The translations under genes were made by a program, and so were the position numbers. Below the pieces are notes generated by a model. That model had not been told where the DNA came from. It searched no databases and saw only the letters and a program-made list of their open reading frames with translations. From Salinibacterium sp. SWN248 (GTDB lineage Bacteria; Actinomycetota; Actinomycetes; Actinomycetales; Microbacteriaceae), in the NCBI RefSeq assembly GCF_015864575.1, contig NZ_JADYWW010000001.1:496001-560000 (forward strand): a stretch of 64,000 bases of DNA, written 5' to 3'. This document shows, one piece after another, positions 32,690-38,290 of the stretch (position 1 is the stretch's first letter; each line of letters starts with the position of its first letter).

Positions 32690-32721
32690 TTGTCTATCGT
32701 GAAACTCTACACCTCAGACAA
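32690..32721 (-). promoter_or_regulatory. Inverted repeat and weak promoter upstream of the GntR gene
   Basis: TTGTCT (32690-32695) and AGACAA (32716-32721) form an inverted repeat 23-54 bases upstream of the GntR start. On the minus strand the distal TTGTCT can serve as a -35, with GATAGA (32693-32698) 17 bases downstream. FCD-GntR operators often contain TTGTCTGA-like halves, so autoregulation is plausible. Confidence 0.35.
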
Positions 32722-33102
32722 GTTGGGGTTCGGCGTTCCCACGCCAGGCAATGCCAATGATGTGGCCCGTCTGGTTGGGGCTGCCGGCGAGCAGCTTCTA
32801 GAGCTGCTCGAATTCCTGTCGTTTTTTGAACCAAGACTGCTGCAGGGATACTCCTCTTCAGGCATTGCGGGGGGTGTTCACACCGTATCGAAAACGGGCT
32901 GGCGGGAGTTGGTGCTGGTGTCAGCCGGGGCTACACTCCGTCGCTGATTGAAGTCGACGCGCTAGCAGCTTCTTGGCTGTCGCGAATACGGCTTCGTGGT
33001 TCTAGGAACAGGCCTGCCGCGGTGCAGTCGCGGCGGGAAAATGGCATCCTGACCATTGGCGTGCTCGAATTCGTGGCGCCTGCCGCGGGGTCGAGCGGCC
33101 CT
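32722..33102. other. Non-coding stretch at the left edge of the accessory patch
   Basis: About 380 bases lie between the GntR control region and the stop of the two-wHTH gene. Neither strand has an ORF with a start, ribosome-binding site and recognisable product; a plus-strand frame is open to 32947 but begins inside the GntR gene. No repeat, tRNA or transposase fragment was identified. It may hold decayed DNA. Confidence 0.4.
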
Positions 33103-34104
33103 TCAACTGCGAGCTAGCTGGGTTCGTAACTCGTGGATCACTTTCGACGGGGCGTGTTCTCCGAACCCTGCAGTGCTTAGGCCAAGTCTGTGGGTCCGGA
33201 GCTCGAGGTTTTCCGCTCTGCCGTCTTTGTGCCGGCCCACTTCTTGGACTTCCAGCAGGCCGAACCACTCCAAAGTTTTTCGAGCTGACGAGTAGGCATC
33301 TCGGTGGATTCCGTAATTCTTGAGACGAATTTCGGGTGGAATTACAACGAGCCCACCCTCAGGCCATCCGCCTTCTTGACACGCGACCATAAGCAAAAGA
33401 GCGATTTCTGAGTCCTCGAGGACATGCAACCAGCCGTTCGCTATGAAGCCATTGGGTACAGCGAAAATGGATTCCCCGGGTACCGGAACGCGATACTCCT
33501 CGGCTTCTCCGACGGACTCGACTCCACGTTCATTTAGAAGAGCAAAGTCGTCGAAACGGTTACGAGCTCTCGGTTCGCCCGGGATCGAAACTAATCCAGC
33601 CTTGGCTAGCCTGCGAAGCGCGCTGCGTACACTTCGCGCGCGCTTGTCGCGAGCCGTTAGATAGACCCCGTTGCTGTGGCTGTCAGTCGCATCGGCGACG
33701 AGTAAGTCCGCCCATCCAAGGTGCTTTGAGTCCCCTGCAATAGGGATGTCGAACTCATGCAGCCGGGCCTTCTCGCCTGGTTTACGTTTCGTCTGCACCA
33801 GCGCAAAAACTATAAGGGCGAACCGTAGTGATCCTCCGCGGCTGGTGATGAGGCGGGTCGCGGGTGGGCGCAGGGCGTGCGGCGGGGCTTTTCTGTCAGA
33901 GGCATCAGGCGCAGTGTCCTTGTCTCGGAAGGAGAAGCCCGAACGCAAGAGGAGTCCTGCCGCCGGCATTGGGGCCGGCATCGATTTGTAGACTCTTTCG
34001 ATCCTGTCGACGTGTTCGGCTCGGTCTAGGCGGCGTAGACGCGCCTCGAGCTTCGAAAATTCTTTCGTGGTCGGGCGCCGCGTCGAATCCGCTGAAACAC
34101 TCAT
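33103..34104 (-). CDS. Hypothetical protein with two winged-helix-like segments
   Basis: The frame runs from ATG 34128 or ATG 34104; I use the latter (333 residues, MSVSADSTRRPTTKEF). There is a basic N-terminal coiled region (FSKLEARLRRLDRAEHVDRIERVYK). Two segments look like winged helices: RDKRARSVRSALRRLAKAGLVSI, and SEIALLLMVACQEGG to SSARKTLEWFGLLEVQE. Such double-wHTH layouts occur in replication initiators and mobile-element regulators, but I do not recognise a family. It lies in the accessory patch beside the AbiF gene. Confidence 0.6.
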   Translation of the reverse strand: MSVSADSTRRPTTKEFSKLEARLRRLDRAEHVDRIERVYKSMPAPMPAAGLLLRSGFSFRDKDTAPDASDRKAPPHALRPPATRLITSRGGSLRFALIVFALVQTKRKPGEKARLHEFDIPIAGDSKHLGWADLLVADATDSHSNGVYLTARDKRARSVRSALRRLAKAGLVSIPGEPRARNRFDDFALLNERGVESVGEAEEYRVPVPGESIFAVPNGFIANGWLHVLEDSEIALLLMVACQEGGWPEGGLVVIPPEIRLKNYGIHRDAYSSARKTLEWFGLLEVQEVGRHKDGRAENLELRTHRLGLSTAGFGEHAPSKVIHELRTQLARS

Positions 34105-34310
34105 TAGAACAACCCCAAGATGCATCAAAATAGTCTGAACGTTTTAACCGGCCAGTACGATCATCGCTTACAAGTTGGATATTGGTGTCTGGCTGGTTGA
34201 AGCGTCTTCTCATCCTAGTGGAAAACCCTCGTGCGTTGTGGGGTAATGATCACACGAGGCGCTGAGGGTCAGCGTGAACGGGCATCACAATCGTGAAGGA
34301 GGTGGCTAGG

Positions 34311-34508
34311 GTGGCGAGCAAACACCGGGTGCGGGCAGGCATCGAGCGGGCAGGAATGTGGTCGACCATCACCGGAGCTGTGCATGCTGGTTGGGGCCCG
34401 ACTGTGCGATTGCTTATGGTCTTGGCGATTCTTGGCGCGGTTTTTATCGCTGCTAGCGACAGTGCAGCTTTGTCTGCTTTCTGGTCGTTTTTGGCGGCTA
34501 GCCGATGA
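34311..34508 (+). CDS. Small membrane protein
   Basis: The 65-residue product starts at GTG 34311 with an AAGGAGG site at 34296-34302, eight bases upstream; the in-frame GTG 34293 would lie before that site. It has one clear membrane segment (VRLLMVLAILGAVFIAASDSAAL) after a basic N-terminus (SKHRVRAGIERAG). It could be holin-like or an accessory membrane component, but no family is recognised. Confidence 0.6.
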   Translation: MASKHRVRAGIERAGMWSTITGAVHAGWGPTVRLLMVLAILGAVFIAASDSAALSAFWSFLAASR

Positions 34509-34552
34509 ACCCCGACTGCTATTCATGTGGAGAATGGTCGGTGACTGATTCT

Positions 34553-35974
34553 TCAGGTGACGATTTGCCGCCCAGCGGGTACTAGGTCAGTCGAGGACCA
34601 AAGCCGGCTCGCCTCCAAGACTGAGTCTGGGTCAATCTCGAGTTGCTGGATTGGCGATAGCTCAAAACCGTTGGCGGTCGAAACGCTCGACCACCATTCT
34701 TGCGCTCTCAATGACTGTGCGCTTTGATCTTTTTCGATTTTCACAATACGCGAGAACAGATTTGCGTTCACATGGCCGACGATCGGCAGAAAGCTGTTTT
34801 CGGCAAATTGGAACGCGGGATAGTAGGTCTGGGGGCCAAGCTTGTGCGCGATCAATGCGCCTCTAGACCGAAGGTACTGGAGCCAGTCCTTCTGGGCTTT
34901 CTCATTCCCTTTCGTTGACACATGCAGCCGTGCCTCTGCATTGTTCAAGCATTCCAGAGCGTCGATAGCATCGACCAACCGGCTGATGATGGGAGCGCCT
35001 CGATATTTGGGCTCCCAGATTCGTTCGTTCTGCCAGCCAGGGGGAAAGCCGAGGTTTCTCAACGAAACATCCCCTTGACGGGCAAAGTCAGTGATCACGT
35101 CCAGTGCCCGGGCGTACCAGCAAGACTCAGGCTGAATGCGAGCGAGGAAGAAGCGGATAACAGTCAGAGTCCCGTACACCTTGCGAAGGGCGATCGAATC
35201 TAGATGTTGGAGTTCGGGCAGGGTTGTTTTTGCTGGCGGCGGCACGACCACGTCGAGGGTGCGATTCCACAACCGTCCGTGGTGTGCGCATATGTTTCGC
35301 ACGTGTCGGAGGTGGTTGATCCACTTCTCCATCGTTGCGCTATCGCCATCGCCATTCCGATCAAGGATTTCGAAGCGCGCCGCGATTAGCTTGCGGTCGT
35401 TATCCTGCATCATCTTGAAGAGGTTGCGCAGCGTTCCAAGGGACATCACCTCGGTCGCAGCCCACACTGGGAGTCGAGAGCCGTACCGGCGGCGGAAGTG
35501 TTTCACGAATTCTTCTTGTGAACGCCTTTCCTCGCGGTTGTAGGCCTCTACCCACTCCGCTTGATCGGACCGAAATACGGCTGTGTCATTTGCGGCCCAG
35601 ACGCCTGCAGAAGGCGCGAGCGAGGAGGGGTTCCGATGCGCGAAACTCGACCGGCGGCCTAGACGGTGCCCCACGTGAAAGCGAAGCGCGATTTCAATTT
35701 GCCCAATGCCCTCGAGAACTACAAGGCGCAGTTGCTCGTCGAGGTTATAGAGCAACTCCAGCTTCCGCAGAGAAGTGCCGTCTTTCACCCTGCTTGACGA
35801 AGAATTCTTTCTGTAAAAGTAGGTATACCCAGATAGCCGGTAATAACCACAACGGCGCAGAAAATCCTCTGCGTAAGCGTCGTCCCCTACGTCAATTCCT
35901 CGACTTTTGAGGATGTCTACTTGTTCGGGTATTGACGCGAATGGCTTCGAATATCCTGTAGAAGAAAAGTCCAT
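34553..35974 (-). CDS. Abi_2/AbiF-type abortive infection protein (HEPN RNase family)
   Basis: The 473-residue protein matches Abi_2 from the start: ASIPEQVDILKSRGI, the RRCGYYRLSGYTYFYRK block and NLDEQLRLVVLEGIGQIEIALR. The HEPN-type RX4H motif is at R226-H231 in HVRNICAHHGRLWN. AbiF/AbiD proteins give phage abortive infection; AbiF-type genes are known to be preceded by a structured RNA and have been proposed as relatives of Cas13's ancestor. At 473 residues it is longer than a typical ~300-340-residue family member, with an extra C-terminal domain of about 130 residues. The ATG is ten bases from a strong hairpin, with no ribosome-binding site. It is more AT-rich than its neighbours, suggesting transfer. 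Confidence 0.85.
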   Translation of the reverse strand: MDFSSTGYSKPFASIPEQVDILKSRGIDVGDDAYAEDFLRRCGYYRLSGYTYFYRKNSSSSRVKDGTSLRKLELLYNLDEQLRLVVLEGIGQIEIALRFHVGHRLGRRSSFAHRNPSSLAPSAGVWAANDTAVFRSDQAEWVEAYNREERRSQEEFVKHFRRRYGSRLPVWAATEVMSLGTLRNLFKMMQDNDRKLIAARFEILDRNGDGDSATMEKWINHLRHVRNICAHHGRLWNRTLDVVVPPPAKTTLPELQHLDSIALRKVYGTLTVIRFFLARIQPESCWYARALDVITDFARQGDVSLRNLGFPPGWQNERIWEPKYRGAPIISRLVDAIDALECLNNAEARLHVSTKGNEKAQKDWLQYLRSRGALIAHKLGPQTYYPAFQFAENSFLPIVGHVNANLFSRIVKIEKDQSAQSLRAQEWWSSVSTANGFELSPIQQLEIDPDSVLEASRLWSSTDLVPAGRQIVT

Positions 35975-35983
35975 AAAAGAAAG

Positions 35984-36026
35984 CTAGCCGCCTCTCCTAC
36001 GGAGAGAACGGCTAGTCGTAATAAAT
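35984..36026 (-). ncRNA. Structured RNA upstream of the AbiF gene (abiF-RNA-like hairpin)
   Basis: On the minus strand a hairpin spans 36015-35984: outer stem CTAGCCG/CGGCTAG (7 bp), a small internal bulge (TT opposite G), inner stem CTCTCC/GGAGAG (6 bp) and a GTA loop. It is followed by CTTTCTTTT directly before the ATG, the form of an intrinsic terminator, so a short RNA may end here. The RNA 5' end is estimated at about 36022-36026 from the promoter. Weinberg and co-workers described an abiF RNA motif upstream of such genes; whether this fold matches that model cannot be tested here. Confidence 0.55.
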
Positions 36027-36028
36027 TT

Positions 36029-36056
36029 ATTCTAACTGATTGCCTAATTTAAGCAA
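36029..36056 (-). promoter_or_regulatory. Promoter of the AbiF-associated RNA
   Basis: On the minus strand TTGCTT (36056-36051) and TAGAAT (36034-36029, five of six matches to TATAAT) are 16 bases apart in an AT-rich setting. The predicted start is just before the hairpin at 36015-35984, so the transcript begins with the structured element. Confidence 0.5.
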
Positions 36057-36221
36057 AGCACTTTTGCGCGGATGTGGATTGGGTTCGAGCGTCAGCGGGT
36101 TTTCGGGCTCGACGTGATGCGACAATCGTTTGCAAAGCGAGATGTGATGCTTCATCCACATTGCGTCTTGAGAAGTGAGCGTCGGGGTTGGCTATGGGCC
36201 CTTTCCGCGGTCATGTTTCGA

Positions 36222-36256
36222 AGTTGTCTTGAGTTATTCAAAACAACTGGTACCGT
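36222..36256 (+). promoter_or_regulatory. 27-bp palindromic Fur/CatR-type operator with promoter
   Basis: AGTTGTCTTGA (36222-36232) and TCAAAACAACT (36238-36248) form 11-bp arms with a single mismatch around GTTAT. The sequence resembles the TCTTGA-N-ATTC-type box of mycobacterial FurA and the sites of Streptomyces CatR (family knowledge). It covers the -35 TTGAGT (36229-36234) of a promoter whose -10 TACCGT is at 36251-36256, so the repressor would block its own transcription. Confidence 0.7.
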
Positions 36257-36263
36257 CGTAGGT

Positions 36264-36713
36264 GTGGAAACAGTGACGGATTCGGCGCTCGCCGACACTC
36301 TGCGAGAGGCCGGTCTCAAAGTGACCGAGCCCCGCGTCGCTGTGCTGACCGCGCTCACCGACATCCCTCACTCCGATGCCGACACGATTTTCGGAGCTGT
36401 ACTGCCGAGTGTGCCCGGCACCTCCCTCCAAGCCGTGTACGGAGTGCTGGCGGCGTTGACGGCGGCGGGCTTGCTGCGCAAGATCGAACCGGCAGGGTCA
36501 TCCGCCCTCTATGAACGTCGCACTGGCGACAACCATCACCACATCGTGTGCACCGAATGCGGTGCCGTGCGCGATGTGGACTGTGTCGTCGGTCACGCGC
36601 CGTGCCTCACGCCCTCCGATGCCGGTGGCTTCACCGTGCACATCGCCGAAGTGAACTTCTGGGGTGTCTGCCCCGATTGCCAGAACGCTCTCACCCAAAA
36701 GAGCGCAGACTGA
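36264..36713 (+). CDS. Fur-family peroxide-responsive regulator (CatR/FurA-like)
   Basis: The protein (149 residues from GTG 36264) has the Fur winged helix (LREAGLKVTEPRVAVLTALTDIP, then QAVYGVLAALTAAGLLRKIEP) and the zinc and metal sites HHHIVCTEC, CVVGHAPC and VCPDC. The -10 element ends seven bases before GTG 36264, so translation is probably leaderless, as for actinobacterial furA; GTG 36273 is an alternative. The frame continues upstream to 36072, but those residues have no family match. It is followed by a catalase, matching the catR-catA or furA-katG pairing. Confidence 0.92.
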   Translation: METVTDSALADTLREAGLKVTEPRVAVLTALTDIPHSDADTIFGAVLPSVPGTSLQAVYGVLAALTAAGLLRKIEPAGSSALYERRTGDNHHHIVCTECGAVRDVDCVVGHAPCLTPSDAGGFTVHIAEVNFWGVCPDCQNALTQKSAD

Positions 36714-36790
36714 ACAACAGAGACAGAGCTGTCTACGCTGTAGCCCATTCTTCAATTTGCCACTAATCACACCCACACAAAGGAGACATC

Positions 36791-38290
36791 GTGACTGAAC
36801 CCACGACAACCCAGGCCGGCGCACCCATTGCGAGCGACGAACATTCGCTCACCACGGGTCCCGATGGCGCAACCGCACTTCACGACCGTTTTCTGGTCGA
36901 GAAGCTTGCCTCGTTCAACCGTGAGCGTGTGCCGGAGCGCAACCCTCACGCCAAGGGTGGTGGAGCATTCGGAGAGTTCGTCGTCACTGAAGACGTGTCG
37001 CAGTTCACGAAGGCCGCCGTCTTCCAGAAGGGTGCGAAGAGCGAAACGATTCTGCGGTTCTCGTCCGTAGCCGGTGAGCAGGGTTCGCCCGACACCTGGC
37101 GCGACGTTCGTGGCTTCGCGCTGCGTTTCTACACGACCGAGGGCAACTACGACATCGTCGGAAACAACACCCCCGTCTTCTTCCTCCGCGACGCCATGAA
37201 GTTCCCCGACTTCATCCACTCGCAGAAGCGCATGGGCGACTCTGGCCTGCGCAACGGCGACATGCAGTGGGACTTCTGGACCCTCTCGCCCGAAAGCGCC
37301 CACCAGGTCACGTACCTCATGGGTGACCGCGGCCTCAGCAAGTCGTGGCGCCACATCAACGGCTACGGATCGCACACCTACCAGTGGATCAACGCTGCCG
37401 GTGAGCGCTTCTGGGTGCAGTACCACTTCCACTCCCGCCAGGGCGTAGAGCTGATGGAAGCTGCGGATGCCGAGCGCATCGCCGGAGAAGACGCCGACTA
37501 CTACCGTCGCGACCTCTTCGATTCCATCGCCAAGGGCGACTTCCCCACGTGGGACGTTTCGGTTCAGGTCATGCCCTACGAAGAAGCCAAGACCTACCGC
37601 TTCAACCCCTTCGACATGACCAAGACCTGGTCGCACAAGGACTACCCGCTGATTCCGGTGGGCCACTTCACGCTCAACCGCAACCCGGAGAGCTTCTTCG
37701 CGCAGATCGAGCAGTCAGCGTTCTCGCCGTCGAACATGGTTCCCGGCACCGACATCAGCCCCGACAAGATGCTGATGGCGCGTGTGTTCTCCTACCCGGA
37801 TGCCCAGCGCAACCGCATCGGAGCCAACTACAACCAGCTCCCCGTCAACCAGCCTCACGCCTCCGAAGCGCGCAACTACCAGCACGAAGGCGCCATGAAC
37901 TACAAGATCGGTGACGCTGCAGCACGCACGTACACGCCGAACTCGTTCGGTGGACCCGCAGCTCAGCCCGAGCTTGCTGGCGAAGGTGGCTGGGCAAGCG
38001 ACGGCGAACTCATGCGCAGCGCTCAGACCCTGCACTCCGAAGACGACGACTTCGGCCAGGCCGGAACGCTCTACCGCGACGTCTTCTCGGCAGAGTCGAA
38101 GGCTCGCTTCATCGAAACCCTCACCGGACAGGGCCGCGGCATCACCGTTCCCGAGATCCTCGAGCGTTTCTACTGGTACTGGGGCAGCGTGGATGCCGAA
38201 CTCGGCGCCACCCTCCGCAAGACCGTTCCCGGCAACGGCGACACCGCCAACGAGGAAGCCGACCCCGTCGGAGTCGGCCCCGCCGAGTAG
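36791..38290 (+). CDS. katA: Monofunctional haem catalase
   Basis: Breaks down hydrogen peroxide. The 499-residue clade 3-type protein has the distal His in [16 protein letters not shown], Asn in [19 protein letters not shown], and the proximal haem Tyr in [17 protein letters not shown]. The usual RVVHA before the His is NPHA here, a small departure. GTG 36791 has AAAGGAG at 36779-36785, five bases upstream. It is co-directional with the Fur-type gene 77 bases before it and likely repressed by it. Confidence 0.97.

Follow-up and report, generated by a model that had tools for sequence, protein, structure and literature searches.

An AbiF gene with an upstream hairpin RNA and a RES-antitoxin-like C-terminal region in Salinibacterium sp. 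SWN248

The AbiF gene and its upstream hairpin

The window analysed here is a 64,000-nucleotide (nt) stretch of the actinobacterium Salinibacterium sp. SWN248 (Microbacteriaceae; RefSeq assembly GCF_015864575.1, contig NZ_JADYWW010000001.1, positions 496,001 to 560,000), from a genome of 3.05 Mb in 5 contigs; on its minus strand it carries a gene for a 473 amino acid (aa) AbiF/Abi_2 protein (34553..35974), preceded on the same strand by an RNA hairpin (35984..36015). The protein is predicted to consist of an HEPN ribonuclease (RNase) core at residues ~8-320, followed by a Xre/MbcA/ParS-like antitoxin region at residues ~321-473. Its identity as an Abi_2 protein, first proposed in a first-pass annotation of the DNA, is borne out by a match to PF07751 (expect value, E, 2.6e-48; residues 38-237; 165.2 bits against a curated cut-off of 25.6) and by a PADLOC AbiD match (E 2.5e-58); PHROG 2158, an abortive infection resistance family, also matches the protein (E 8.1e-52). 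By sequence, residues 8-321 are homologous to the solved PbAbiF chain 8vz6_A (E 3.4e-35). The HEPN catalytic motif R226-N-I-C-A-H231 (35282..35299, minus strand) is of the RNxxxH type; the RX4H motif reported earlier at these residues is present in the translation, and R226, N227, A230 and H231 do not vary across the 32 rows of an alignment.

The hairpin, CUAGCCGU-U-CUCUCC-GUA-GGAGAG-GCGGCUAG, has eight pairs (the innermost being G-U), one bulged U and a further six pairs; it folds at -22.8 kcal/mol (z -5.1), and none of 200 shuffles is equally stable. The 7+6 bp hairpin and T-rich run described earlier are real, the outer stem being one pair longer, and this stem covaries among related loci. 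Behind it lies a U-rich, terminator-like tail, CUUUCUUUU (35975..35983, minus strand), a T-rich tail being common to the aligned loci; the ATG at 35974 abuts the U-run. As first observed, the ATG has no evident ribosome-binding site, inspection of the bases from the U-run to the ATG showing no Shine-Dalgarno sequence; the hairpin's 3' arm contains a purine-rich GGAGAGG. Upstream, on the same strand, are a candidate -10 box, TAGAAT (36029..36034), and a weak -35, TTGCTT (36051..36056), with a 16-nt spacer between them. A generic scan found no sigma-70 promoter at the locus and one terminator-like site; the support for the -10 box is instead a positional comparison among loci. From the -10 position and the U-run an RNA of ~46-52 nt is predicted (35975..36023, minus strand), which would start near 36022-36026 and end in the U-run. 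The locus appears to have the layout of an AbiF-RNA system: a structured RNA upstream of the gene on the same strand, with its own putative promoter and a terminator before the gene.

An Rfam scan of the hairpin returned no match even at E 10, and the gathering cut-off of RF03085 was not reached. This model also matched none of 16 loci from the same family set, both copies from this genome included, none of five plasmid loci, and three out of 16 candidate hairpins at more distant AbiF loci; the positive control phiC2 was found at 37.6 bits, with a stem of 6 bp and six bases bulged on the 3' side. Because RF03085 misses most of the AbiF loci scanned yet finds phiC2, Rfam was rejected as a decisive test of the hairpin; the lack of an Rfam match, named in the first-pass annotation as a sign against its proposal, is thus a fact that does not decide the matter. 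In both RF03085 and the window a hairpin with an interrupted stem lies upstream of an abiF gene, but the model has a large 3' bulge (CAAAUC in its model line) and the window hairpin a single 5' bulge. The public model misses the compact actinobacterial AbiF RNA.

Conservation of the hairpin, its promoter and solitary copies

A survey of 398 genomes of the same family found AbiF homologs in 70 of them, at 84 places. At 31 of these places (L002-L032, made up of the 30 best-matching loci, the window included, and a second copy from its own genome) the DNA upstream was read by eye, and a hairpin ending in a T-rich tail lies upstream of the start codon in all 31; the absence from homologous loci that would have spoken against the hairpin was not encountered in this set. 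Five plasmid copies (L033-L036 and L038) likewise carry an upstream hairpin and T-rich tail. A search of named genomes with the single AbiF protein found nothing; with an alignment as the query it gave 584 relatives, and among the best 80, which were kept, 23 loci are actinobacterial, 19 of them with a hairpin. An automatic hairpin picker proposed a candidate at 99 of 117 loci, several being clearly spurious.

In an alignment of 38 hairpins the nine-pair outer stem covaries, with 72 double-change cells against 21.9 in shuffles, which gives the hairpin the covariance support that the first-pass annotation had sought; the covariation score is 0.679, compared with 0.309 when shuffled and at most 0.158 in slid controls. 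The 17 loci that encode long AbiF forms, with a C-terminal extension, taken by themselves have 33 double-change cells against 14.8 shuffled. The flanks of the hairpin are conserved as well, with an ACGA-like unpaired 5' side and a UUUUCUUU-like 3' side. The promoter shows the same regularity: in each of 48 hand-picked actinobacterial loci a TANNNT starts 16-19 nt ahead of the hairpin, where shuffled flanks give a mean of 3.4 (the set leaves out L002, L009, L014, L022, L029, L078 and L100, in which the picked hairpin was wrong or overlong, L051, L052, L089 and L106, which have no convincing hairpin, and all other phyla). With the -10 box at a fixed distance, transcription is expected to begin no more than a few bases from the hairpin, which agrees with the earlier suggestion of a -10 promoter whose start falls just before it. 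RNA and protein distances are correlated (Mantel r 0.71 over 34 loci; 0.20 among divergent pairs), which shows only that RNA and protein travel together.

The second AbiF gene of this genome (L002; G000:C1:574220-575131, minus strand) lies outside the window and encodes a short form. Its hairpin is of another type, GACCGGUUCCGCC...UCCAGGGCCGGUC, with a UCCA bulge on the 3' side; this type is common to its protein relatives L026, L028, L031 and L032, and for this group the RNA type tracks the protein type, not the host.

A covariance model of the RNA, R1, was run against 396 genomes of the family (under stricter filters, 14 candidates being scored in each) and gave 38 matches in 36 genomes, 26 beside AbiF and 12 solitary. 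Thirty of these loci were read, with AbiF sequence directly downstream in 22 and absent in eight; of those judged by AbiF places alone, the matches in G000 (the window), G020, G183 and G161 stand beside AbiF, the AbiF matches in G020 and G183 spanning merely ~50 residues, and those in G007, G075, G238 and G263 are solitary. AbiF is broken or truncated at four of the 22 (L208, L214, L216 and L222), so that at least 16 of the 38 RNAs have no intact AbiF alongside; the -10 box is intact in seven of the eight solitary copies read. The converse, an AbiF place lacking the upstream hairpin, was seen at none of the 31 family places read and, outside these, at four actinobacterial loci. An RNA kept without its toxin, and a toxin seldom found without its RNA, are as expected if loss of the toxin is harmless and loss of the RNA is not; this asymmetry is toxin-antitoxin-like and is consistent with an antitoxin role, without being proof of it. 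In the solitary AbiF RNAs nature also provides cases on which immunity through the RNA alone, against an incoming toxin, could be tested.

One of the solitary RNAs lies in the window's own genome, ~20 kb past the window end (L210; G000:C1:580182-580235, minus strand), with an intact -10 box and no AbiF beside it, just behind a coding sequence resembling purC. The same site is occupied in G082, an AbiF-free genome by the homolog survey, and in G779, and also in G780 with a changed hairpin; for G779 and G780 the absence of AbiF was checked within the fetched stretches. In two different genera (L223 from G041 and L224 from G208) promoter and hairpin are kept and the HEPN core is gone, with a stub of the C-terminal region remaining. 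In G161 a broken long AbiF is flanked on both sides by AbiF-type RNA (C2:178080-178136 and 179753-179809).

The C-terminal region and its relation to RES antitoxins

The C-terminal region of the window protein (34556..35014, minus strand) had been reported as an extra region of about 130 residues and was left unrecognised; it does exist, its size being ~150 residues (~321-473), and its identity is new here. It comprises a helix-turn-helix-like (HTH-like) part, a YPxFQF motif and a WW...SPxxLL end. Across 17 aligned long forms, seven residues (P, F, Q, N, W, W and P) are invariant within the pattern YPxFQF...N...WW...SPxxLL, and the window extension is 19-29% identical to the other 16. The YPxFQF...WW...SPxxLL pattern resembles RES-toxin antitoxins, a likeness that was tested by profiles and gene context.

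Searches by tblastn with two of the C-terminal regions against plasmids gave 49 and 29 records, AbiF copies included, from which 11 stand-alone relatives (L179-L189) were chosen for their gene context. In seven of them (L180, L182, L183, L184, L187, L188 and L189) the matched protein directly precedes a gene for a RES nicotinamide adenine dinucleotide (NAD+) phosphorylase, whose start is at most 4 nt from the antitoxin end or overlaps it; tblastn values for these range from E 1e-13 for L180 and 3e-10 for L182 to 0.03 for L187 and 0.2 for L189. At L181 (E 9e-17) a gene annotated with a RES domain begins 63 nt downstream; in L179 and L185 the match is followed by RES-like sequence, the annotated RES gene standing at another place in the stretch, and L186 (E 0.05), annotated as a Xre/MbcA/ParS toxin-binding protein, has no RES gene in its stretch. 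The AbiF tails align to the stand-alone antitoxins by hhalign with 99.5% probability (E 1.4e-22, 117 columns), and the stand-alone proteins themselves match PF09722 in three of 11 (best E 3e-5) and HTH_17 in three of 11. A 17-row tail profile searched in 394 genomes of the class found 26 places, the window and 25 others; a RES gene, called by a RES profile built from the plasmid loci, is adjacent on the same strand at 15 of the 25, compared with none of 30 control loci (L196-L225), which are AbiF/RNA loci of one family and are unmatched for taxon.

Domain models are less informative: PF23125 (Xre-MbcA-ParS_M) was found in three of the 17 C-terminal regions (best E 0.0016), a result weak by itself because the next family, DUF7939, follows at E 0.0046; a rescan of 10 of the 17 showed no PF23125, and the three matches are therefore among the other seven. 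Genome searches with PF09722 and PF23125 gave 0 of 40 genomes and 1 of 148, the latter below the cut-off, and PDB profile searches with the C-terminal region were negative or returned MbcA 6fkg at E 0.14 amid unrelated matches. By its homology and the gene context of its relatives, the window protein is a putative AbiF toxin fused to a RES-antitoxin-like (Xre/MbcA/ParS) region; the extension seems to resemble the toxin-binding part of antitoxins from a quite different toxin-antitoxin system. In the available text of PMC11535050 and PMC12204516, NatR and Xre are described with an N-terminal HTH and a C-terminal RES-binding domain, and in NatR-NatT the last helix of the antitoxin enters the active site of the toxin.

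Long forms are spread over several actinobacterial families. In a tree of 60 AbiF cores (L089 left out) they occur in Microbacteriaceae, Brevibacteriaceae, Cellulomonadaceae, Micrococcaceae and Corynebacteriaceae, and on Rhodococcus and Paenarthrobacter plasmids; the long label needs three changes, at least two of them forced, and the fusion therefore arose or was lost more than once. Among 58 viral-contig loci none aligns past query residue 350, so no long form was seen there. One long-form AbiF (L046:1402-1480) has no in-frame ATG, GTG or TTG near its start and perhaps begins at ATT or ATC. Another, on the conjugative plasmid pAO1 of Paenarthrobacter nicotinovorans (L035, 1077-3077), adjoins annotated Pycsar effector and cyclase genes; this neighbourhood is perhaps a small defence cluster.

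Interpretation of the unit and its genomic setting

The closest characterised relative is the phage-borne AbiF-RCd22 system of Clostridioides difficile. According to the available text of PMC12373285, the C. difficile AbiF is toxic, dependent on R202 and H207, and is neutralised by its upstream RNA, RCd22, which works through termination in cis and through binding in trans. The window unit shares with it the Abi_2/AbiF HEPN protein with an R/H pair, the upstream structured RNA with its own promoter, the terminator before the gene and a type III-like antitoxin RNA, which is here a prediction. RCd22 is however ~100-130 nt long, with two RF03085 motifs and a separate terminator, whereas the window unit has one hairpin fused to its U-run, no RF03085 match, and an extra antitoxin-like C-terminal region. 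In the PbAbiF-ncRNA complex PDB 8vz6 (Zilberzwige-Tal et al. 2025, as cited in the accessible parts of PMC12373285 and PMC12737573) the HEPN core is homologous and has an RNA partner; its chain is 300 aa and ends where the window extension begins, the comparison covering the protein. Covariance models for AbiF by the same authors are mentioned in the portion of PMC12804078 that was available. Compared with the RES-Xre, MbcTA, ParST and NatRT type II systems, the window region is homologous to their antitoxins (HTH-like part, YPxFQF and toxin-binding end) but is fused to an RNase toxin and has no adjacent RES toxin gene. Cas13 of type VI CRISPR (clustered regularly interspaced short palindromic repeats) systems has a related HEPN RNase fold through AbiF; the window protein differs in having a single Abi_2/HEPN match, and no tandem or CRISPR-like repeats were found around the gene (window 32700-37000).

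The window locus is considered to be a type III-like AbiF toxin-antitoxin unit in which a short RNA serves as both antitoxin and attenuator and the RES-antitoxin-like arm has a regulatory or sensing role; the probability of this is put at about 0.75. The first-pass suggestion that the hairpin could be both a terminator and an antitoxin-like RNA gains support from the comparison of loci, through its position, its covariation, the -10 box and the keeping of the RNA without the toxin. In the proposed mechanism the promoter at 36034-36029 would drive the ~46-52 nt RNA, which would mostly end at its own U-run and, judging by solved and tested relatives, would bind and silence an AbiF HEPN RNase dimer. 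Occasional read-through into the gene, with its ATG against the U-run and no Shine-Dalgarno sequence, would give a little toxin; a drop in RNA supply, for example at phage takeover, would leave AbiF free to cleave RNA and to stop growth, as is suggested by the family. The arm might bind a RES-like partner or DNA and tune AbiF or its own promoter, which is the weakest step.

Several observations weigh against this account. No convincing hairpin was seen at four of the actinobacterial loci (L051, L052, L089 and L106, of which L052 and L089 are long forms), nor at many proteobacterial loci among the best 80 of 584. Two of five covariation measures do not rise above shuffles (6 pairs with double changes against 5.5, and 13 further pair types against 16.1), and the long-form loci alone fall similarly short in both. 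The share of paired cells in the outer stem, 98.0%, is inflated because the loci were picked for having hairpins; the slid controls and the conserved flanks are safer evidence. Half of the R1 matches (19 of 38) were training rows of the model, the remaining 19 being divided into seven beside AbiF and 12 solitary. The window extension alone has no Pfam match, its best match when searched alone is another long AbiF at E 1e-3, and as a single query in 394 genomes it found only itself; with such weak matches, its assignment rests on the family profile. Conservation alone, moreover, cannot tell an antitoxin from a plain attenuator, because the hairpin is also a good intrinsic terminator. It is conceivable that the hairpin acts in cis only, as a terminator or attenuator keeping abiF expression low, with no binding of AbiF in trans; a stable hairpin followed by a U-run, with the start codon directly behind and no Shine-Dalgarno sequence seen, is what such a device would have, the C. 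difficile leader also acts in cis by premature termination (available text of PMC12373285), and the solitary copy behind the purC-like sequence could be the terminator of that gene. This is judged unlikely in view of the conserved unpaired 5' flank (ACGA-like) and the -10 box at a fixed distance, the promoter and hairpin kept where the gene is gone, with all but one of the -10 boxes read intact, and the action in trans of the same C. difficile relative (same source).

For the C-terminal region a regulatory or sensing arm appears the most likely role, although it is the weakest step of the argument; a second, working antitoxin function is possible. A RES gene was found beside the long-form AbiF in none of 19 stretches (the whole window and 18 others, with flanks mostly of 1.5-4 kb), and the window part shares little identity with the other 16 (19-29%), both of which would suit a fossil, or a mere stability or dimerisation add-on with neither antitoxin nor sensing function; this has some weight but is the less probable choice, since the invariant P, F, Q, N, W, W and P are kept in 17 of 17 long forms across several actinobacterial families. 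If the region instead worked as the antitoxin of a RES NAD+ phosphorylase whose gene lies elsewhere, one polypeptide would be both an RNA-held toxin and a RES-holding antitoxin. Its homology to RES antitoxins points that way, as do RES genes present somewhere in five of six long-AbiF genomes compared with 34 of 150 family genomes, an enrichment that is not relied upon because the set is small and related (six genomes, three of one genus, with G000 in both sets). In G395, however, an open reading frame (ORF) with an FPxWQF motif, apparently the RES gene's own antitoxin, directly precedes the RES gene, and the RES protein of the window's own genome is a 429-aa form; a working RES antitoxin is therefore regarded as quite improbable. 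A wider and rather speculative proposal is that one polypeptide joins an RNA-silenced HEPN RNase (type III logic) to a RES antitoxin arm (type II logic), an arm through which AbiF would guard a RES-type enzyme that consumes NAD+, or would be set off by it, so that RNA cleavage would be linked to NAD+ depletion, with the solitary RNAs of this genome and its relatives serving as anti-addiction RNAs.

As an AbiF-RNA pair the unit is of a kind already known; what is new is its compact hairpin-terminator and, still more, the fused RES-antitoxin-like region. The interest of the family comes from the proposal that AbiF-RNA pairs are ancestors of Cas13: the review PMC12737573, in its accessible portion, classes AbiF and its RNA together as type III and as a likely Cas13 ancestor, citing Zilberzwige-Tal et al., and so states both the RNA association and the ancestry that the first-pass annotation had mentioned. 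The distribution of AbiF in the available text of PMC12373285 stresses Bacillota and Pseudomonadota, and actinobacteria are never named in that text; to these the present family adds actinobacteria, in a very compact form whose single hairpin, easy to dissect, would serve as antitoxin and terminator alike. No description of an AbiF/RES-antitoxin fusion was found among the papers listed by searches of the open-access literature, and an earlier description elsewhere is possible; the fusion is a concrete case in which a connection of type III with type II toxin-antitoxin systems, and of RNA cleavage with NAD+ metabolism, can be tested.

The AbiF unit lies in an accessory, strain-variable segment (32738..36220), bordered by a GntR-type gene on one side and by a pair of FUR-family and catalase genes on the other. 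Downstream of AbiF in the same segment is a 341-aa ORF (33103-34128, minus strand) with no Pfam, PADLOC or PHROGs match. In four genomes of the same genus (G082, G242, G346 and G779) the match to the window breaks off at 32732-32737 and resumes at 36221-36222, the DNA in between being different, and two more (G145 and G780) match solely from 36222-36223 on; these break points place the AbiF unit in a variable, probably mobile, segment beside the FUR-family and catalase genes.

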